Positions 53,453 through 64,000 of a stretch of DNA of 64,000 nucleotides are shown piece by piece. The DNA is from Mumia sp. ZJ1417 (GTDB taxonomy: Bacteria > Actinomycetota > Actinomycetes > Propionibacteriales > Nocardioidaceae), in assembly GCF_014127285.1 (NCBI RefSeq), contig NZ_CP059901.1, positions 3,472,001 to 3,536,000 on the forward strand. The letters are read 5' to 3'. The notes under the pieces are model-generated. The model was not told where the DNA came from. It searched no databases and saw only the letters and a program-made list of their open reading frames with translations. The position numbers and the translations under genes are program-made. Within the stretch, counting starts at the first letter, position 1; each line of letters starts with the position of its first letter.

Positions 53453-53511
53453 CGCGTTGGTGACTCCGTGGTCACCGCGCCGGCGCGGGTGACCACTCAC
53501 GCACCGACGCG
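53453..53511. terminator. Long mismatched palindrome between convergent genes
   Basis: Two 24-base arms (53453-53476 and 53488-53511) match at 19 positions, with mismatches grouped in the middle of each arm, around a GC-rich centre. The GMC oxidoreductase stop (53497) lies inside the right arm. It is a probable bidirectional terminator. Confidence 0.5.
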
Positions 53512-55119
53512 CGCGCCGCCCACCCGCGCCGGCGGCAGGACGCGCCCCCGCAGCAGGTCAGCAGCCTTCTCGCCGACCATGATCGTCGGCGCGTTGGTGT
53601 TGCCGCGCGGCACGACCGGCATGACCGACGCATCCACCACCCGCAGTCCCACGACTCCCCGCACCCGCAGCTCCGGATCGACGACCGCGGCCTCCCCGTC
53701 GCCCATGGCGCAGGTGCCGACGGGATGGAACAGCGTCTGGGTCTGCGCCCGGGCGTGCGCGACGAGCTCGGCCTCGGTCGGCACCGCGCGCCGCGCCGAG
53801 GGCAGCCACAGATCCTTGAGGAAGCGCGCGAGCGGCCCCGACGCCACGGTCTCGAGGAGCCGCTGCGTCCCGGCGACCATCGCATCGAGGTCGGACTGGT
53901 CGTCGTAGTAGGCGGCGTCGATCTCCGGGTGCCAGGTCGGGTCCGCCGACCGCAGCCGGAGCGACCCGCGGCTCGCGACGCTGACCAGCGTCGGCGCGAT
54001 CGTCATCGACCGGACCTGAGGCTCGTGCATGCCGTTGTCGTAGAACGCGCTCGGCGCGACGTGCGCCTGGAGATCGGGTGCCGCGAGCCCGTCACGGGTG
54101 GCGAAGAACGCCCCCGCCTCACCGACGTTCGAGGCGAGCGGCCCCTTGCCGGTCGCCTTCCAGCGCAGGAGGTTGCCGAGCGTCGACGCCTCCGCGAGGT
54201 CGGTCGAGTCCCTGGTCGCCCAGACGAGCGGCAGCGCCGGGTGGTCGTGGAGGTTGGCGCCGACACCGGGCAGGTCGGCGACGACGTCGATGCCGTGCTC
54301 GCGCAGGTGGGCCGCCGGGCCGATGCCGGAGAGCATGAGGACCTGCGGGCTGTTGACCGCGCCGCCGGACAGCACGACCTCGCGCTCGGCGCGGGCGATC
54401 TGCTCGCCGCCGGCCACGCGGTACGCGACGCCGGTGGCCCGCCCGCCCTCGATCACGATCCGCGTGACCAGCGCCCCGGTCAGCACGGTGAGGTTCGGGC
54501 GAATGAGCGCCGGGCGCAGATAGGCGTCGACCACGGACCAGCGCCGGCCCTTGCGGCACGTGACCTGATAGAGCCCCGCGCCCTCCTGCGACTCGCCGTT
54601 GAAGTCGTCGGTCGCCTTCAGGCCCGAGGCCACCGCCGACTCGACCCACGCCTCGCTCAGCGGGTGGGTGTAGACGCGGTCCTCGACACGCACCGGGCCG
54701 TGCTGCCCGTGGTACGGGCCCGCGAGGCGGGTGTTGCCCTCGGAACGCAGGAAGTACGGAAGGACGTCCTCGTACCCCCATCCGGTCGCGCCGTGCGCAT
54801 CGCGCCACGTGTCGTAGTCGACCCGGTTGCCGCGGATGTAGATCATCGCGTTCATCGACGAGCAGCCGCCGAGCGCCTTCATGCGTGGCCAGTACGCCCT
54901 GCGGCCGCCGAGCTGCTTCTGAGCGACCGTGCTGTAGCCCCAGTCCCAGCGGGTCTTGATGAGGTTCGCGAAGGCGGCCGGGATCGCGATCTCGTCGGCG
55001 TCGTCGACCGGCCCGGCCTCCAGCAGGAGGACGGACACGGACGGGTCCTCCGTGAGCCTCGTCGCGACCACCGCTCCGGCACTGCCGGCACCCACCACCA
55101 CGTAGTCGTACGACGTCAT
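53497..55119 (-). CDS. GMC-family FAD oxidoreductase (choline dehydrogenase-like)
   Basis: This 540-residue flavoprotein of the glucose-methanol-choline family has the FAD-binding motif YVVVGAGSAGAVVA at the N-terminus and GGCSSMNAMIYIRGN and SGGAVNSPQVLMLSGIGPA as the two GMC signatures. The C-terminal TLFHPVGTCAMGDG has the active-site His, and a second conserved pair lies in PRGNTNAPTIMVGEKAAD. It would oxidise an alcohol; choline is only one possibility. The ATG at 55119 fits the start of the FAD motif; an upstream alternative at 55173 would lie in the palindrome-rich promoter. Confidence 0.92.
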   Translation of the reverse strand: MTSYDYVVVGAGSAGAVVATRLTEDPSVSVLLLEAGPVDDADEIAIPAAFANLIKTRWDWGYSTVAQKQLGGRRAYWPRMKALGGCSSMNAMIYIRGNRVDYDTWRDAHGATGWGYEDVLPYFLRSEGNTRLAGPYHGQHGPVRVEDRVYTHPLSEAWVESAVASGLKATDDFNGESQEGAGLYQVTCRKGRRWSVVDAYLRPALIRPNLTVLTGALVTRIVIEGGRATGVAYRVAGGEQIARAEREVVLSGGAVNSPQVLMLSGIGPAAHLREHGIDVVADLPGVGANLHDHPALPLVWATRDSTDLAEASTLGNLLRWKATGKGPLASNVGEAGAFFATRDGLAAPDLQAHVAPSAFYDNGMHEPQVRSMTIAPTLVSVASRGSLRLRSADPTWHPEIDAAYYDDQSDLDAMVAGTQRLLETVASGPLARFLKDLWLPSARRAVPTEAELVAHARAQTQTLFHPVGTCAMGDGEAAVVDPELRVRGVVGLRVVDASVMPVVPRGNTNAPTIMVGEKAADLLRGRVLPPARVGGARVGA

Positions 55120-55132
55120 GGCGGAAGTGTGG

Positions 55133-55145
55133 CATGTGTCACATG
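55133..55145. promoter_or_regulatory. Palindrome before the GMC oxidoreductase gene
   Basis: CATGTGTCACATG is a perfect six-base-arm palindrome with a one-base centre, 14 bases before the GMC start. It is a candidate repressor site for that gene. Confidence 0.4.
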
Positions 55146-55158
55146 TCCCTGGAAAACA

Positions 55159-55195
55159 TGAGGCTTGCCTCACGAAAATGTTGAGGTTTCCCTCA
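55159..55195. promoter_or_regulatory. Two tandem TGAGG-N4-CCTCA palindromes in the fatty acid synthase promoter
   Basis: TGAGG-CTTG-CCTCA (55159-55172) and TGAGG-TTTC-CCTCA (55182-55195) are identical inverted repeats 23 bases apart start to start, close to two helical turns. The outer edges extend to AAACATGAGG and CCTCATGTTT, so the whole block is itself symmetric. It lies 56 bases before the synthase GTG. Cooperative binding of a dimeric lipid-responsive regulator is inferred. Confidence 0.6.
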
Positions 55196-55250
55196 TGTTT
55201 GGGTCATCATGAGACCTTCCGGCATCTACCTGAGGAAGTTCGAGGGACAC

Positions 55251-58200
55251 GTGACGATCATCGACACCCCGACCACCCGGACGACGCACGTCGACCACCG
55301 TTCGCGGCTGATCGACGCTCTGAACGGCGGTACGCCCTACGCCGTCGCCTTCGGCGGCCAGGGCAGCCCCTGGCTCGAACCCCTGAGCGAGCTGCTCCGT
55401 ACGTTCGCCCTCGGCTCCTCGATGCACGCCCTCTGCGCGGACGCCGAGTCCCGGCTCGAGCCCGTATGGGGTGAGCTCGCACGGCTCCCGTACGCCTTCA
55501 CCCCGCTGGCCTGGGCCGACGCCCTCGCCGTCGCCGAGTCCGCCGCGTCCGACGACGCGCCCGCGACCCCCGACGCCGACCTGCTCGCCCAGCCTGCCGT
55601 CTCCGTGCCCGGTATCGCGCTGGCCCAGCTCGCCGGCCTCCAGGCGCTCGCACTGCAGGGCCTGGACCCCGCCGCGACGCCGCCGACCGCCGTCGTGAGC
55701 CACTCCCAGGGCGTGCTCGCCGCCGAGGTGCTCGCCGGCCGCGACCCCGCCGACGTCCTCGCGCTGGCCCGCCTCGTCGGCGCCGGCATCCAGCTCGCCG
55801 CCCAGCGCGCCGGCCTGCTCGGCGACACGATGCTCGCCGTACGCCGCGTCGACCCGGCCGAGGTCGAGCGCCTCCTCGCCACGATCGACGGCGTCGACGT
55901 CGACCTCGCCCTGCGCAACGGCCGCCGTACGGTCGTCCTGAGCGGCCCCGCCGCCGACCTCGTCACCGTCCAGCGCCGCCTCGAGGCCGAGGCCAAGACC
56001 CAGGCCGCCCTGCGCGAGCGCAAGGTGACCGGCGGTACGCCGTTCTCGCCCGTCTTCGAGACCCTCGACCCGCGTGCGGCCTTCCACCACCACGGGCTGC
56101 GCCCCGCCGGCGAGCTGGTCGCCACCTGGGCAAAGGCGTGCGGGCTCGACCCGGAGTGGGCGCGCGACGTCGCCGTCCGCGCCGTCATCGCCCCCGGAGA
56201 CTGGGTCGACGCCCTGGAGTCCGCGCTCGACTCCGGCCCGGAGTGGATCCTCGATCTCGGACCGGGCAACCTCGCCTCGCTGCTCGCCGACTACGAGGCG
56301 ACAGCCCGCGGCGTCGGGCTCGTCGCGCCCGCCACCCGTGAGGGCCACCGCGCGCTCACGACGCCGGGCGCCGCGCCCCGCCGACGCGAGGCCTGGGCGT
56401 CCTTCGCCCCGAAGCCCGTCACGCTGCCCGACGGCCGTACGGTGCTCGAGACCCGCTTCACCCGCCTGACCGGTCGCTCGCCGATCCTCCTCGCGGGCAT
56501 GACGCCCACGACCGTCGACCCGGCCATCGTGGCCGCTGCGGCGAACGCCGGCTTCTGGGCCGAGCTCGCCGGCGGCGGGCAGGTCACCGAGGGCATCTTC
56601 GCCGAGAACGTCGGCACGCTCGACGACCTGCTCGACGACGGACGTACGTACGCGTTCAACGCGCTCTACCTCGACCCGTACCTGTGGAAGATGCAGCTCG
56701 GCCAGCAGCGCCTGGTCCAGCGCGCCCGCGCCACAGGGTCCGCCGTCGACGCCGTCGTCGTCAGCGCCGGCATCCCCGACCTCGCCGACGCCGTCGCGCT
56801 CGTCGAGGAGCTGCGCGAGTCCGGCATCTCGTACGTGGTGTTCAAGCCCGGCACCGTCAAGCAGATCCGCGAGGTGCTCGCGATCGCCCGCGAGGTCGCG
56901 CCCACTCCGATCGTCGTGCACGTCGAGGGCGGCAAGGCCGGCGGCCACCACTCCTGGGAGGACCTCGACGACCTCCTCCTCACCACGTACGCGCAGCTGC
57001 GTGCGCTGGACAACGTCGTCGTCTGCGTCGGTGGCGGCATCGGCACGCCCGACGCCGCATCGGCCTACCTGACCGGCGCGTGGGCACGCCGCCACGGCTA
57101 TCCGGCGATGCCGCTCGACGGCATCCTCATCGGCACCGCGGCGATGGCGACCCTCGAGGCGACCACGTCGCCGCAGGTCAAGCAGATGCTCGTCGACACC
57201 CCCGGCACGCCCGAGTGGGTCGGAGCCGGCCGCGCCGACGCCGGCATGGCATCCGGGCGCAGCCAGCTCGGCGCCGACATCCACGAGATCGACAACGCCG
57301 CCTCGCGCGCCGGACGCCTCCTCGACGAGGTCGCCGGTGACACCGAGGCCGCGCAGCAGCGGCGCGACGAGATCATCGCCGCGATCGCCCCGACGGCCAA
57401 GCCGTACTTCGGCGACGTCACCGAGATGACGTACACGGCCTGGCTGGCGCGCTTCGCCGACCTCGCCTACACCGACCGCTGGCTCGACGTGACCCTGCGC
57501 GACCGGTTCCACGCGATGATCCAGCGTGCCGAGGCCCGCCTCCACTCCGCCGACCACGGCGAGATCGCGACGCTGTTCGCCGAGGGTGCGGACGTCGAGG
57601 ACCCGCACGCCGCGCTCGCGACGCTGCTCGCCTCGTACCCGAAGGCGACGGAGGTGACCCTCCACCCGGCCGACGTGCCGTTCTTCGTCGAGGTGTGCCG
57701 CCGCCCGGGCAAGCCGGTGCCGTTCGTGCCGGTGCTCGACGGCGACGTCCGCCGCTGGTACCGCTCGGACTCGCTCTGGCAGGCCCACGACGCGCGGTAC
57801 GACGCGGACGCCGTCTGCATCATCCCCGGGACCGTCGCGGTCGCCGGGATCACGCAGGTCGACGAGCCCGTCGCCGACCTCCTGCGCCGCTTCGAGGACG
57901 AGACGGTCGACGACGTCCTGACCGCCGGTGCGCTCACCTCGCGCGTCGCGGGTCGCCGTCGCGTCGACGCCGCCGACGACGTGCTGGGTCTCGTCCTCGC
58001 CGCGCCGGACGTCTCGTGGGCGGGCCGTACGGTCCGCAACCCCGTCCACCGCCTCGGCACCGACTGGGTCATCGTCGAGCCGGCACGCGCCGAGCACGCC
58101 GAGACCGGTGCCGTCCTGCGTACCGAGGGTGAGACCGCCGTGCTCGAGGTCGGCCTCGGCGGCGGCCGTACCCTGACCGTCCGCCTCCAGGTCGCCGACG

Positions 58201-61200
58201 CCGCCGACGGTGGCGCCCCGGTCATCACCGCAGACGACGCGGTGACGGCGATGCGCGATCTCGCGGGCCTCGCGGCCGGCGACGCGCTCCCGACGGTCGA
58301 GGGCGACGTCGCCCGCGCGGCCGTGACGTGGTCCGGCGACCTCGGCTCCGACCACGCCGCGGTCAGCTCCGGACCGCTCGTCCCCGGCGCCCGTCCCGCC
58401 CCCGACGCACTCGTCGGGCTCGCGTGGCCTGCCGTCTTCGCCGTGCTGTCGCACGCGCACGGCGACAGCGCCGTACCGCTCGTCGAGGGCATGCTCGACC
58501 TCGTCCACCTGGACCACGCGATCGCTCTCGCGGGCGAGCTGCCTCACGAGACGACGACGCTGGTCGTCGAGGCGCGCCTCGCCGACGTCACCGACACCGG
58601 TGTCGGGCGCGTCGTGACGATCGACGTGACCGTCCGTACGGAGGCCGGTGCCGCGGTCGCCACGATGCGCGAGCGCTTCGCGATCCGCGGCCGTACCGGC
58701 GCCGCCGACCTCACCGACCCCGTCATCGCCGGCGGCGCGGCACGCGGCCCGGTGGCCGACACCCCGCGCCGTACCCGCGCCGAGAAGACCGTCGTCGCCC
58801 CGAGCGACCTGCGGGCCTTCGCGGCCGTCACCGGCGACCACAACCCGATCCACACCAGCACTGCCGCGGCCCGCCTGGCCGGGCTGGGCGAGCCGATCGT
58901 CCACGGCATGTGGCTGTCGGCGGCCGCGCAGCACCTGCTGGCACCGCGCCGCATCGACGGTTGGACCACGCGCTTTCTCGCCCCGGTACGCCCGGGCGCC
59001 GAGGTCGAGCTGCGCGCTGTCCGTACGGGGCTGGACTCCGGCGCAGAGATCGTCGAGGTCACCGGACGCAGCGAGGGCGAGCTCGTCCTTGCCGCGACCG
59101 CGCGGACCTTCGCCCCGCGGACCGCGTACGCGTTCCCCGGGCAGGGCATCCAGCACGCCGGCATGGGGATGGCCGGCTACCAGCGCAGCAAGGCGGCGCG
59201 TGAGACCTGGGACCGGGCCGACGCGCACACCCGCGAGGTGCTCGGGTTCTCGATCCTCACCGTGGTGCGCGACAACCCGACGGTCGTCGTCGCCCACGGC
59301 GTGACGCACAAGCACCCCGACGGCGTCCTGTTCCTCACGCAGTTCACCCAGGTCGCGATGGCCGTCCTCGGCTCTGCGCAGATCGCCGAGCTGCGTGAGG
59401 CCGGCGCGTTCGTCGACGACGCGATGCTGGCGGGCCACTCGGTCGGCGAGTACAACGCGCTGTCGGCGGTCTCCGGCGTCATCAGCCTGGAGGCCGTGAT
59501 CGAGGTCGTGTTCCAGCGCGGCTCGGTCATGCACACGCTCGTCCCGCGCGACGCCGAGGGCCGCAGCGACTACCGTCTCGCGGCGATCCGGCCGAGCCAG
59601 ATCGGGCTCGACGACGACGCGGTCGCCCCGTACGTGGCGCGCATCGCCGAGGAGACCGGCGAGTTCCTGGAGATCGCGAACTACAACCTGCGCGGCTCGC
59701 AGTACGCGATCGCCGGAACGGTGAAGGGGCTCGCGGCGCTCGAGGCGGACATCACGAAGCGTCGCGCCGAGTTCGGCGGCAAGGCCGCGTTCATCCTCGT
59801 CCCGGGTATCGACGTACCGTTCCACAGCCGCGTCCTGCGTGGTGGCGTGCCGGACTTCCGTACGCGCCTCGAGGAGCTGCTGCCGGAAACGATCGATCCC
59901 GCGATCCTGCTCGGGCGCTACGTCCCGAACCTGGTGCCGCGGCCGTTCACGCTCGACCGCGCGTTCATCGCCGAGATCGCCGAGACGGTTCCGTCGGAGC
60001 CGCTCAACGAGGTGCTCGCCGACTATGACGCGTGGGCCGCGACGCCGGGCCAGCTGGCGCGGCGCCTCCTCGTGGAGCTGCTCGCCTGGCAGTTCGCGAG
60101 CCCGGTGCGCTGGATCGAGACGCAGGACCTGATGTTCGGCGACCTCGGCGTCGAGCGGTTCGTCGAGGTCGGCGTGGGCAACGCGCCGACCGTCGCCAAC
60201 CTCGCGTCGTCGACCCTCAAGCTCCCGACCTCGCCCGACCGCCCGATCGAGGTGCTCAACATCGAGCGGGACGCGGCGGCGGTCTTCGCGACCGACACCG
60301 ACCCGGAGCGGGAGCCCTCGGCGGTCGAGGACAAGCCGGTCGAGCCTGTCGAGACCCCCCAGTCGGCCGGGGCTGCAACGGTTCCCTCCCCCGCTGCAGC
60401 ACCGGTCTCCTCCTCGGCCGAGCGACCGGCCGACCTCGCGTTCGACGCCGCCGACGCCACCAAGGTCCTGCTGGCCTGGTGGACCAAGATGCGGCTCGAC
60501 CAGATCGGTGCCGCCGACTCCATCGAGTCGCTGTGCGACGGCGCGTCCTCGCGACGCAACCAGCTGCTCGTCGACCTTGGCGGCGAGCTGTCGCTCGGCG
60601 CGATCGACGGTGCGGCCGACGCCGACCTCCCGACGCTGTCGGGTCAGGTCAAGGGACTCGCTCGCGCGTACAAGCCGTTCGGTCCGGTCCTCGCGACCGC
60701 CCTCGGCGACCACCTGACCAAGGTCCTCGGCCCGACCGGCAAGCGCCAGGCCGCGATCGCGGAGCGCGTCACCGGCGCGTGGCAGCTCGGCCCCGGTTGG
60801 GCGAGCCACGTGACCGCCGAGCTCGCACTCGCGACCCGCGAGGGCACGAGCGTACGAGGCGGCGCGTTCGGTGACCTGAACGTCGCCGCAGGTTTCGACG
60901 CGGCCGTCGACGCCGCCGTCCAGGCCATCGGTGCCCGCCACGGTGTCGCGGTCGCGCTGCCGAGCGCCGGTGGTGGCGGCGACGTCACCGTCGACGCCGC
61001 CGCGCTCGGTGAGATCACCGCCGGCATCACCGGTCCGGACGGCGTGCTGGCCTCCACGGCACGGCACCTGCTCGCGAAGCTGGGCGTGGCGCCGACCGCG
61101 GAGACGACGGCGAGCGCGACCAGCGACGCCGACGCCGCCGTGCTCGCGCAGGTCGAGGCTGAGCTCGGCACCGAGTGGGCGCGGCTGACCGCTCCAGCGT

Positions 61201-64000
61201 TCGATGCCCGACGGGCGCTGCTGCTCGACGACCGCTGGGCGAGCGCCCGCGAGGACGTCGCGCGCATCGCCGCGGGCCGTGAGGTCGCCATTGCGACCAG
61301 CTCCTTCGCCGGCACCGGAGAGGACGTCGCCACCCAGGCTCGCTGGTGGGCGCCCCGTACCGACGACCCGGTCCTCGCGGACCGCCTCACCGCCATCGCC
61401 GAGGCCGCGCTCGACACGGCGCCCGGCGAGTGGGCCGACGACGTCGCCGTCGTCACCGGCGCGAGCTCCGGCTCGATCGCGTCAGCTGTCGTCGGCCGGC
61501 TGCTGGCCGGCGGCGCGACGGTGGTCGCCACGACGTCGAGCCTCGACCAGCGCAAGCTGCGGTCGTTCAAGGCGCTCTACCGCCGGTACGCCCGCGGCGG
61601 TGCCCGCCTGTGGGTGGTACCGGCCAACCTCGCCTCGTTCGCCGACGTGGACGCGCTCGCGTCGTGGGTGGTCGAGGAGCAGACGTCCAGCGCCGGCGGC
61701 GTGACCACAGTGACCAAGCCTGCTCTCGAGCCGACGCTGGTGTTCCCGTTCGCCGCGGGCCCGGTCTCCGGCGACCTCACCGAGGTGGGGCCGCGCAGCG
61801 AGGTCGACATGCGGATCCTGCTCTGGTCGGTCGAGCGCCTCGTCGGCGCCTTCGCCACCAGTGGCCGCGACCACGACCTGGCGTCCACGCTCCACGTCGT
61901 GCTGCCGGGCTCGCCGAACCGCGGCATGTTCGGCGGCGACGGCGCGTACGGCGAGGCCAAGGCCGCGCTCGACGCGATGGTCACGCGGTGGTCGAGCGAG
62001 TCGACGTGGAACCAGCGCGTCACTCTCGTCCACGCGATCATCGGCTGGGTCCGCGGGACCGGGCTGATGGGGGGCAACGACCCGCTCGTGGACGCCGTCG
62101 AGAAGGTTGGCGTCCGTACGTGGTCGACCGACGAGATGGCCGACGCGCTGCTCGACCACGCGACCGTCGACGCACGGGCGAGTGCCCGTACGGCGCCGGT
62201 GACCGCCGACCTGACCGGCGGGTTGGGCGAGGTCGAGCTGGACCTCGCGGCCCTGGCGCGCGAGGCGGGGTCTCGACAGGCTCGACCGACGGAGGAGGCT
62301 CGACCGACGGAGGCGACGATCGATGCGCTCGCGCCGTCGCCCGCACAGCTGCCGACCCGGCCCGAGGTTGCGTGGCCGAGCCTCTCGGCCCGTCCCGAAG
62401 ACCTCGTCGTCATCGTCGGTGCCGGCGAGCTCGGCCCGTACGGGTCGGCGCGCACGCGCTTCGAGTACGAGGTCTCCGAGGAGCTCTCGGCTGCCGGCGT
62501 GCTCGAGCTCGCCTGGTCGACCGGGCTGGTCGCCTGGGACGACAACGGCGGCTGGTACGACGTCGAGTCGGGCGAGCCCGTCACCGAGGCCGAGATCCAC
62601 GAGCGCTATCACGACACCGTGGTCGAGCGGTGCGGCATCCGCCGCTACGCCGACGACGGCGCGCTGGTCGACACCTCCACGCCGCTGCTCGCCCGGGCGT
62701 ACCTCGATGACGACCTCACGTTCAGCGTCGGCAACGAGGCGGCCGCGCGGGCGATGTACGACGCCGACCCCGACCGTACGGTCATCGCACCCGGTGCCGA
62801 CGGCGACTGGGCCGTCACCCGCAAGGCCGGCACCGAGATCCGCGTCCCGCGGCGTCTCGCGCTGACCCGGACGATCGGCGGCCAGATCCCGACCGGATTC
62901 GACCCAGGTGCGTGGGGCGTGCCGGCGGAGATGCTCGAGTCGCTGGACCGGGTCGCGGTCTGGAACCTCGTCTGCACCGTCGACGCGTTCCTGTCGTCCG
63001 GCTTCAGCCCGGCCGAGCTCATGCGCTGGGTCCACCCGGCGGCGGTCGCGAGCACGCAGGGCACCGGTATGGGCGGCATGACGTCGATGCGTTCGCTCTA
63101 CATCGACACGCTGCTCGGCGAGGCGAAGCAGAACGACATCCTGCAGGAGGCGCTGCCGAACGTCATCGCGGCGCACGTCATGCAGTCGTACGTCGGCGGC
63201 TACGGCGCGATGATCCACCCGGTCGCGGCCTGCGCGACGAGCGCGGTGTCGGTCGAGGAGGGTGCCGACAAGATCCGCCTCGGCAAGGCCGACTTCGTCG
63301 TGGCCGGCGGCTTCGACGACCTCTCGACGGAGGGCATCATCGGGTTCGCCGACATGTCCGCCACGGCCGACTCGGGGGTGATGCTCGCCAAGGGCATCGA
63401 CCCGCGCTTCGTGAGCCGGGCCAACGACCGGCGGCGCGGCGGGTTCGTCGAGTCGCAGGGCGGCGGCACGATCCTCCTCGCGCGCGGCGACGTCGCGGTG
63501 CGGATGGGCCTGCCGGTGCTCGGCGTGGTCGCGTACGCAGGGTCGTTCGCCGACGGCGTCCACACGTCGATCCCGGCGCCGGGTCTCGGCGCGCTGGCCG
63601 CGGCCCGCGGTGGCGCGCAGTCGCCGCTGGCCCGGGGGCTCGCCGCCCTCGGTCTCGGCGCGGACGACGTCGCTGTCGTGTCGAAGCACGACACGTCCAC
63701 GGCGGCCAACGACCCGAACGAGTCCGAGCTGCACGAGCGGATCGCCGCGTCGCTGGGCCGATCGGACGGCAACCCGCTGTTCGTGATCTCGCAGAAGACG
63801 CTGACGGGTCACTCCAAGGGCGGCGCGGCCGCGTTCCAGATGATCGGGCTCTGCCAGGTCCTCGGGAGCCAGGTGCTGCCGCCGAACCGTTCGCTCGACT
63901 GCGTCGACGACGTCCTCGACGAGAACCCGCACCTGGTGTGGCTGCGCGACGCGCTCACGGCGCCGGCGCCGCTGCGGGCGGGGCTGGTGACGAGCCTCGG
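55251..64000 (+). CDS. fas: Type I fatty acid synthase (partial at right edge)
   Basis: One reading frame runs from GTG at 55251 to the window edge (over 2900 residues), with actinobacterial FAS-I domain order. Acyltransferase: about 30-330 (VVSHSQGVLAAEVL). Enoyl reductase: about 390-830 (GGGQVTEGIFAENVG, HVEGGKAGGHHSW). Hot-dog dehydratase: to about 1280 (VTGDHNPIHT, EPIVHGMWL). Malonyl/palmitoyl transferase: about 1290-1660 (LAGHSVGEYNAL). ACP: phosphopantetheine Ser near DGASSRRNQ, about 1764. Ketoreductase: about 2060-2330 (VVTGASSGSIASA). Ketosynthase: from about 2380 (Cys in AACATSAVSV, His in SKHDTSTAA and TLTGHSKGG). The GTG is chosen over ATG at 55209 because it has GAGGGA upstream and VTII matches the usual MTI- start. 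Two linkers carry the interspersed repeat. Confidence 0.96.
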   Translation, partial: MTIIDTPTTRTTHVDHRSRLIDALNGGTPYAVAFGGQGSPWLEPLSELLRTFALGSSMHALCADAESRLEPVWGELARLPYAFTPLAWADALAVAESAASDDAPATPDADLLAQPAVSVPGIALAQLAGLQALALQGLDPAATPPTAVVSHSQGVLAAEVLAGRDPADVLALARLVGAGIQLAAQRAGLLGDTMLAVRRVDPAEVERLLATIDGVDVDLALRNGRRTVVLSGPAADLVTVQRRLEAEAKTQAALRERKVTGGTPFSPVFETLDPRAAFHHHGLRPAGELVATWAKACGLDPEWARDVAVRAVIAPGDWVDALESALDSGPEWILDLGPGNLASLLADYEATARGVGLVAPATREGHRALTTPGAAPRRREAWASFAPKPVTLPDGRTVLETRFTRLTGRSPILLAGMTPTTVDPAIVAAAANAGFWAELAGGGQVTEGIFAENVGTLDDLLDDGRTYAFNALYLDPYLWKMQLGQQRLVQRARATGSAVDAVVVSAGIPDLADAVALVEELRESGISYVVFKPGTVKQIREVLAIAREVAPTPIVVHVEGGKAGGHHSWEDLDDLLLTTYAQLRALDNVVVCVGGGIGTPDAASAYLTGAWARRHGYPAMPLDGILIGTAAMATLEATTSPQVKQMLVDTPGTPEWVGAGRADAGMASGRSQLGADIHEIDNAASRAGRLLDEVAGDTEAAQQRRDEIIAAIAPTAKPYFGDVTEMTYTAWLARFADLAYTDRWLDVTLRDRFHAMIQRAEARLHSADHGEIATLFAEGADVEDPHAALATLLASYPKATEVTLHPADVPFFVEVCRRPGKPVPFVPVLDGDVRRWYRSDSLWQAHDARYDADAVCIIPGTVAVAGITQVDEPVADLLRRFEDETVDDVLTAGALTSRVAGRRRVDAADDVLGLVLAAPDVSWAGRTVRNPVHRLGTDWVIVEPARAEHAETGAVLRTEGETAVLEVGLGGGRTLTVRLQVADAADGGAPVITADDAVTAMRDLAGLAAGDALPTVEGDVARAAVTWSGDLGSDHAAVSSGPLVPGARPAPDALVGLAWPAVFAVLSHAHGDSAVPLVEGMLDLVHLDHAIALAGELPHETTTLVVEARLADVTDTGVGRVVTIDVTVRTEAGAAVATMRERFAIRGRTGAADLTDPVIAGGAARGPVADTPRRTRAEKTVVAPSDLRAFAAVTGDHNPIHTSTAAARLAGLGEPIVHGMWLSAAAQHLLAPRRIDGWTTRFLAPVRPGAEVELRAVRTGLDSGAEIVEVTGRSEGELVLAATARTFAPRTAYAFPGQGIQHAGMGMAGYQRSKAARETWDRADAHTREVLGFSILTVVRDNPTVVVAHGVTHKHPDGVLFLTQFTQVAMAVLGSAQIAELREAGAFVDDAMLAGHSVGEYNALSAVSGVISLEAVIEVVFQRGSVMHTLVPRDAEGRSDYRLAAIRPSQIGLDDDAVAPYVARIAEETGEFLEIANYNLRGSQYAIAGTVKGLAALEADITKRRAEFGGKAAFILVPGIDVPFHSRVLRGGVPDFRTRLEELLPETIDPAILLGRYVPNLVPRPFTLDRAFIAEIAETVPSEPLNEVLADYDAWAATPGQLARRLLVELLAWQFASPVRWIETQDLMFGDLGVERFVEVGVGNAPTVANLASSTLKLPTSPDRPIEVLNIERDAAAVFATDTDPEREPSAVEDKPVEPVETPQSAGAATVPSPAAAPVSSSAERPADLAFDAADATKVLLAWWTKMRLDQIGAADSIESLCDGASSRRNQLLVDLGGELSLGAIDGAADADLPTLSGQVKGLARAYKPFGPVLATALGDHLTKVLGPTGKRQAAIAERVTGAWQLGPGWASHVTAELALATREGTSVRGGAFGDLNVAAGFDAAVDAAVQAIGARHGVAVALPSAGGGGDVTVDAAALGEITAGITGPDGVLASTARHLLAKLGVAPTAETTASATSDADAAVLAQVEAELGTEWARLTAPAFDARRALLLDDRWASAREDVARIAAGREVAIATSSFAGTGEDVATQARWWAPRTDDPVLADRLTAIAEAALDTAPGEWADDVAVVTGASSGSIASAVVGRLLAGGATVVATTSSLDQRKLRSFKALYRRYARGGARLWVVPANLASFADVDALASWVVEEQTSSAGGVTTVTKPALEPTLVFPFAAGPVSGDLTEVGPRSEVDMRILLWSVERLVGAFATSGRDHDLASTLHVVLPGSPNRGMFGGDGAYGEAKAALDAMVTRWSSESTWNQRVTLVHAIIGWVRGTGLMGGNDPLVDAVEKVGVRTWSTDEMADALLDHATVDARASARTAPVTADLTGGLGEVELDLAALAREAGSRQARPTEEARPTEATIDALAPSPAQLPTRPEVAWPSLSARPEDLVVIVGAGELGPYGSARTRFEYEVSEELSAAGVLELAWSTGLVAWDDNGGWYDVESGEPVTEAEIHERYHDTVVERCGIRRYADDGALVDTSTPLLARAYLDDDLTFSVGNEAAARAMYDADPDRTVIAPGADGDWAVTRKAGTEIRVPRRLALTRTIGGQIPTGFDPGAWGVPAEMLESLDRVAVWNLVCTVDAFLSSGFSPAELMRWVHPAAVASTQGTGMGGMTSMRSLYIDTLLGEAKQNDILQEALPNVIAAHVMQSYVGGYGAMIHPVAACATSAVSVEEGADKIRLGKADFVVAGGFDDLSTEGIIGFADMSATADSGVMLAKGIDPRFVSRANDRRRGGFVESQGGGTILLARGDVAVRMGLPVLGVVAYAGSFADGVHTSIPAPGLGALAAARGGAQSPLARGLAALGLGADDVAVVSKHDTSTAANDPNESELHERIAASLGRSDGNPLFVISQKTLTGHSKGGAAAFQMIGLCQVLGSQVLPPNRSLDCVDDVLDENPHLVWLRDALTAPAPLRAGLVTSL
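60336..60360. repeat. Interspersed repeat copy 5 (transferase-ACP linker of fas)
   Basis: CCGGTCGAGCCTGTCGAGACC in reverse orientation is read in frame as KPVEPVETP, the same reading as in the Ski2-like helicase. It lies in the Ala/Pro-rich linker before the ACP domain. Confidence 0.65.
62266..62314. repeat. Interspersed repeat copy 6 (ketoreductase-ketosynthase linker of fas)
   Basis: GGTCTCGACAGGCTCGACC is followed by a tandem partial copy (GGCTCGACCGACGGAGG). It is read as GSRQARPTEEARPTEA in the linker between the ketoreductase and ketosynthase regions, the same frame as the nuoE copy. Confidence 0.65.

Follow-up and report, generated by a model that had tools for sequence, protein, structure and literature searches.

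Paired dyads between fas and a divergent oxidoreductase gene

The window (the whole 64-kb stretch of Mumia sp. ZJ1417 DNA analysed here) ends inside fas, the gene of a type I fatty acid synthase (FAS-I), which is recognised by its Pfam domains and runs on the + strand from a GTG start at 55251 to 64000 and past the window end. The start context GTGACG is kept in Mumia genomes. Divergently from fas, the − strand carries a gene (53497–55119, ATG at 55119) for a choline-dehydrogenase-like GMC oxidoreductase of 540 aa (Pfam GMC_oxred_N/C). This divergent arrangement is found in 6/6 Mumia genomes with a variable gap between the GMC gene and the dyads described below, and the GMC gene was not found upstream of fas in G019 and G024, the two loci of other genera with enough sequence; control of the GMC gene by these dyads is thus no more than possible. 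Downstream, the gene order is fas, acpS, a convergent gene of a TetR-type regulator (G000:C1:3536878-3537501, − strand, 0.9 kb past the window end), a subtilase-like ORF, and then the acc operon. An AurF-like diiron oxygenase gene and a ferredoxin/reductase-like gene come after the acyl-CoA ligase gene of this operon; the subtilase-like ORF between tetR and acc and the oxygenase genes correspond to L012:11133-12701 and L012:16147-18677.

Two TGAGG-N4-CCTCA dyads 23 bases apart had been described upstream of fas in a sequence-only reading of the window, and they are indeed located there, between the GMC gene and fas. Putative operator 1 has the core TGAGGCTTGCCTCA at 55159–55172 (matrix score 24.8) and is kept in six Mumia genomes; putative operator 2 has the core TGAGGTTTCCCTCA at 55182–55195 (matrix score 30.8) and is likewise conserved. 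Their arms are identical, their 4-bp spacers are different, and the start-to-start distance is 23 bp. Both dyads extend to AACATGAGG-N4-CCTCATGTT, which gives the 22-bp sites AACATGAGGCTTGCCTCACGAA (55155–55176) and ATGTTGAGGTTTCCCTCATGTT (55178–55199), and together they form a 47-bp symmetric unit (55154–55200) with arms of 19 nt that are 79% complementary; neither the cores nor the joint unit has a strand. In the 64-kb window the core pattern occurs twice, against 0.03 matches expected, and 0/100 shuffles reached two. The proposal that this spacing places two dimers on one face of the helix is at best approximate and lacks support: with 10.5 bp per turn, 23 bp make 2.19 turns and leave the sites some 70 degrees out of phase, and at the acc promoter the two operators mostly stand 28–30 bp from each other.

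The dyads could alternatively work as RNA, in the form of leader or terminator hairpins. Taken in tandem they give a long hairpin with a z-score of −1.8, and there is a weak terminator-like match on the − strand. The z-score is modest, however, and a consequence of the palindromes themselves. Over 41 sites, outer-arm pairing amounts to 2.29, compared with 2.51 when arms are shuffled among sites (99.9% of shuffles are at or above the value observed); the outer arms thus pair less than shuffled ones, and there is therefore no compensatory change. Given this result and the absence of any Rfam match, a structured RNA leader was rejected, and a function of the dyads at the RNA level is hardly credible.

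A separate palindrome upstream of the oxidoreductase gene, also pointed out in the earlier reading, is present as CATGTGTCACATG at 55133–55145 (no strand), 13 bp upstream of the GMC ATG. In the five other Mumia the sequence is not palindromic, and it was rejected as a second operator; it probably belongs to the promoter region of the GMC gene.

Sites elsewhere in the genome and in related actinobacteria

Genome-wide, TGAGG-N4-CCTCA has 11 matches and the reversed control pattern has one, while the extended site with at most three mismatches gives six genome matches against one control match. The scan near lipid genes that had been proposed as a check turned up sites at fas, at the acc operon and at a malic enzyme gene. 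The acc operon, which comprises genes for a carboxyltransferase, a biotin carrier protein and an AMP-dependent acyl-CoA ligase, lies 2.5 kb beyond acpS and carries two extended sites (3539222 and 3539252, 30 bp apart) directly before its genes; the malic enzyme gene has one extended site at 512535, 30 bp before it. A sixth site (G000:C1:2155296-2155317; L013:2997-3018), scoring 24.2 bits, overlaps with what appears to be the ATG of an ORF of 492 aa which matched no Pfam family, and it has no counterpart in other Mumia among the matches with at most three mismatches. Five other TGAGG-N4-CCTCA sites in the genome were treated as chance matches because their flanks are poor and they fall mostly inside predicted coding sequence.

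A weight matrix led to the same set. It was built from sites at fas and acc in other genera only, without Mumia sites, in order to avoid circularity, and it was applied to 286 kb of the genome in pieces picked partly for holding sites, whereas the pattern scan covered the whole genome. In these 286 kb, six sites score at least 20 and the next best reaches 11.8; the top score in 4 Mb of random Markov sequence is 14.0. A percentile null from random chunks was dropped, since such chunks contain true sites. Operator-like sites were also observed 160–200 bp before the acyl-CoA ligase gene fadD in two other Mumia (L309, L311) and before a 3-hydroxyacyl-CoA dehydrogenase gene in L305 (G019:C160:4773). 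The fadD site is degenerate in Mumia sp. ZJ1417, and fadD was not retained as a regulon member here.

Absence of the dyads before orthologous fas genes had been named as part of what would refute the proposed control, but they are present there. The fas pair is found in six Mumia genomes, G019, G024 and nine named Aeromicrobium-type and Nocardioides jejuensis loci, and its spacing is exactly 23 bp in 11/11 named Nocardioidaceae loci as well as in the Mumia genomes; these and the following presence/absence counts come from related genomes and so are not independent. The acc operator pair occurs in nearly all of 28 Mumia and Aeromicrobium-type loci with a spacing of 27–30 bp. For malE (malic enzyme), the operator is found in 6/6 Mumia, in G019 and in 12 of the 26 Aeromicrobium-like genomes that gave a malE match; it sits at −41 to −62, counted from the aligned start of malE. 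Three relatives lacking fas have no such operator.

Farther away, a single operator precedes fas in 22/28 Mycobacteriales loci whose upstream sequence is readable (Gordonia, Williamsia, Hoyosella, Jongsikchunia and Rhodococcus), and one is found before fas in the Rhodococcus-like G511. Three Corynebacterium-like genomes carry a diverged operator just upstream of fas, with matrix scores of 21.4–24.4 bits. No recognisable operator was found in G009 and G025, in which fas is present and the TetR protein is 61–62% identical. On the whole, the operator is enriched in genomes having fas. In Gordonia and Williamsia, a conserved GGTATACC palindrome was seen about 20–25 bp before the single fas operator (L157, L158, L162, L171, L178, L185, L187 and L192); it is possibly the site of a second regulator. 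No dyad precedes a second fas copy, L047 (G019:C260:28621), which comes from a MAG of 8% contamination.

The fas-linked TetR protein and a possible repression mechanism

The protein encoded beyond acpS belongs to the TetR/AcrR family (PF00440, PF17928 and PF17918), having a TetR_N helix-turn-helix and a helical TetR C-terminal domain, and is 96–98% identical in Mumia relatives. Among 58 relatives, fas is present in ten, all of which carry this TetR; one more genome, 62% complete, has TetR only. The co-occurrence has a hypergeometric probability of 2e-10, uncorrected for phylogeny and with six of the genomes coming from one genus. Moreover, where the sequence of a named locus extends far enough, the TetR gene almost always adjoins acpS/fas. 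The expectation that FAS-I is under TetR-type control is thereby strengthened: the dyads look like TetR-regulator operators, and a candidate gene stands just beyond acpS. N. jejuensis, which has no acc operon in the locus, carries an operator of 30.7 bits 53 bp before tetR itself. The tetR promoters of Mumia, Aeromicrobium and Gordonia have no operator except in G003, where acc and tetR are divergent, and autoregulation in Mumia or Gordonia was accordingly discarded.

A different TetR protein might bind the dyads instead, namely a homologue of mycobacterial FasR (Rv3208) encoded elsewhere in the genome (G000:C1:1088168-1088749). This homologue reaches 246 bits with the mycobacterial FasR model, whose cut-off is 330, and mycobacterial FasR is known to act on fas-acpS through three inverted repeats (PMC7382501). 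However, such homologues are found in nearly all relatives with or without fas, and in most of the 58, fas-less ones included, their score is similar, whereas the operator is enriched where fas is present. It is the fas-linked TetR, and not the Rv3208-type protein, that tracks fas and the motif, and it is the promoter of its own gene that carries the operator in N. jejuensis. Mycobacterial FasR was therefore set aside as the binder, and the Rv3208-type homologue is an improbable candidate. Judging from sequence comparison, it is highly likely that the dyads are tandem fasO-like operators of the fas-linked TetR, acting on fas-acpS, acc and malE.

As for the sense of regulation, a candidate fas core promoter can be read by eye at 55181–55210 on the + strand, consisting of TTGAGG (55181–55186), an 18-bp spacer and CATCAT (55205–55210). 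The −35-like hexamer falls inside operator 2, and CAT(C/G)AT after operator 2 is kept in Mumia; a strict sigma-70 promoter scan gave no match. The acc promoters of Aeromicrobium have their two operators on either side of a −10-like TATAGT hexamer and the leader, and in Mumia a TTGACA lies ahead of operator 1 of acc. With core promoters read in this way, the operator geometry at fas and acc suits a repressor. The FasR protein of C. glutamicum is a repressor of accBC, accD1 and both fas genes (PMC6460773), and for this reason repression is the best guess for the Mumia TetR as well. It is also conceivable that the fas-linked TetR binds the dyads and yet activates fas, as does mycobacterial FasR, an activator of fas-acpS that is released by long acyl-CoA (PMC7382501, PMC5541348). 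Activation is unlikely here, given that the operators appear to overlap the fas −35 region and flank the TATAGT-like −10 and leader of acc in Aeromicrobium, and that repression is the role of the syntenic FasR in Corynebacterium (PMC7851686).

Repression by the fas-linked TetR would thus proceed as follows. A TetR dimer would recognise AACATGAGG-N4-CCTCATGTT and occupy two operators at fas-acpS, two at the acc operon and one at the malic enzyme gene. Because the operators appear to overlap core promoters, the bound protein would most likely block RNA polymerase. By analogy with Corynebacterium FasR, which represses accD1, fasA and fasB with acyl-CoA as the effector (PMC7851686; PMC6460773), the signal is probably long-chain acyl-CoA, whose presence would promote binding and so give feedback repression. 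The closest matches to an AlphaFold model of the protein (pLDDT 89.6) are TetR proteins, among them the palmitoyl-CoA form of DesT and the stearoyl-CoA form of FadR. The predicted fold thus fits acyl-CoA sensing, although a match of this kind is common to many TetR proteins. The motif, its conservation, the regulon and the co-occurrence and synteny with the TetR gene are observed directly; TetR binding, repression over activation, acyl-CoA as the effector and the sense in which it acts are inferred.

The malic enzyme fits such a regulon, since in oil-forming Rhodococcus NADP-dependent malic enzymes feed lipid synthesis (PMC8401914); in Mumia this enzyme is perhaps a source of reducing power for the synthase. 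We lean towards the view that the FasR-type switch of Nocardioidaceae has taken in malic enzyme, so that one acyl-CoA-sensing repressor would couple FAS-I, malonyl-CoA supply and reducing power.

Relation to known regulators of fatty acid synthesis

Taken together, the paired palindromes are very probably the landing sites of the neighbouring TetR-type repressor and represent a Nocardioidaceae version of the FasR switch, which is known from Corynebacterium and to which malic enzyme is a notable addition. A regulator, an operator and a list of targets are thus offered in testable form for FAS-I control beyond Corynebacterium and Mycobacterium. In the family holding Gordonia and Rhodococcus, the TetR profile is matched in 229/301 genomes and 24/31 genera, and with such a wide distribution the operator should be readable in many oil-forming actinobacteria. 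The profile had no match in two large-genome Mycobacterium-like genera; as another TetR protein has been described there as an activator, this suggests that the regulator was exchanged, perhaps together with the sign of its action. Were malic enzyme truly a target, redox supply would be coupled to lipid synthesis through transcription.

Several known systems share features with this one. DesT and FadR have a close predicted fold, palindromic operators and acyl-CoA effectors, but they are only 14–20% identical in sequence to the Mumia TetR and have other target genes. FasR of Streptomyces coelicolor and mycobacterial MabR also control fatty acid synthesis via inverted repeats; these are, however, PucR-type proteins unrelated to TetR that act on type II (fab) genes. 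M. tuberculosis FasR (Rv3208) also controls fas-acpS as a TetR-type regulator, at a promoter that has several inverted repeats, but it belongs to another TetR subfamily, is an activator, and its gene is not the fas-linked one.

The possibility that the regulator known from mycobacteria and corynebacteria works here as well could be kept for the corynebacterial FasR type, on synteny and identity, and had to be abandoned for the mycobacterial Rv3208 type: against the mycobacterial FasR model NF053731 the fas-linked TetR scores 20.9 bits, far below the cut-off of 330. In Corynebacterium-like genomes, TetR homologues that are 50–55% identical adjoin acpS and fas, with the diverged operator before fas. 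By position and identity, the Mumia protein thus appears equivalent to Corynebacterium FasR, as judged on Corynebacterium-like genomes and not on C. glutamicum FasR/fasO themselves. A regulon of the corynebacterial type would have operators at the genes of FAS-I as well as those of acyl-CoA carboxylase, and both are found here; the operator type before Corynebacterium fas is the same in a diverged form, as seen in the three Corynebacterium-like genomes rather than in the published fasO. The Mumia system resembles C. glutamicum FasR (cg2737)/fasO in having a TetR-type regulator near the FAS-I gene and both fatty acid synthase and acyl-CoA carboxylase as targets, and differs from it in the operator pair with 23-bp spacing at fas, in the linkage of the acc operon to the fas locus, and in the malic enzyme target.
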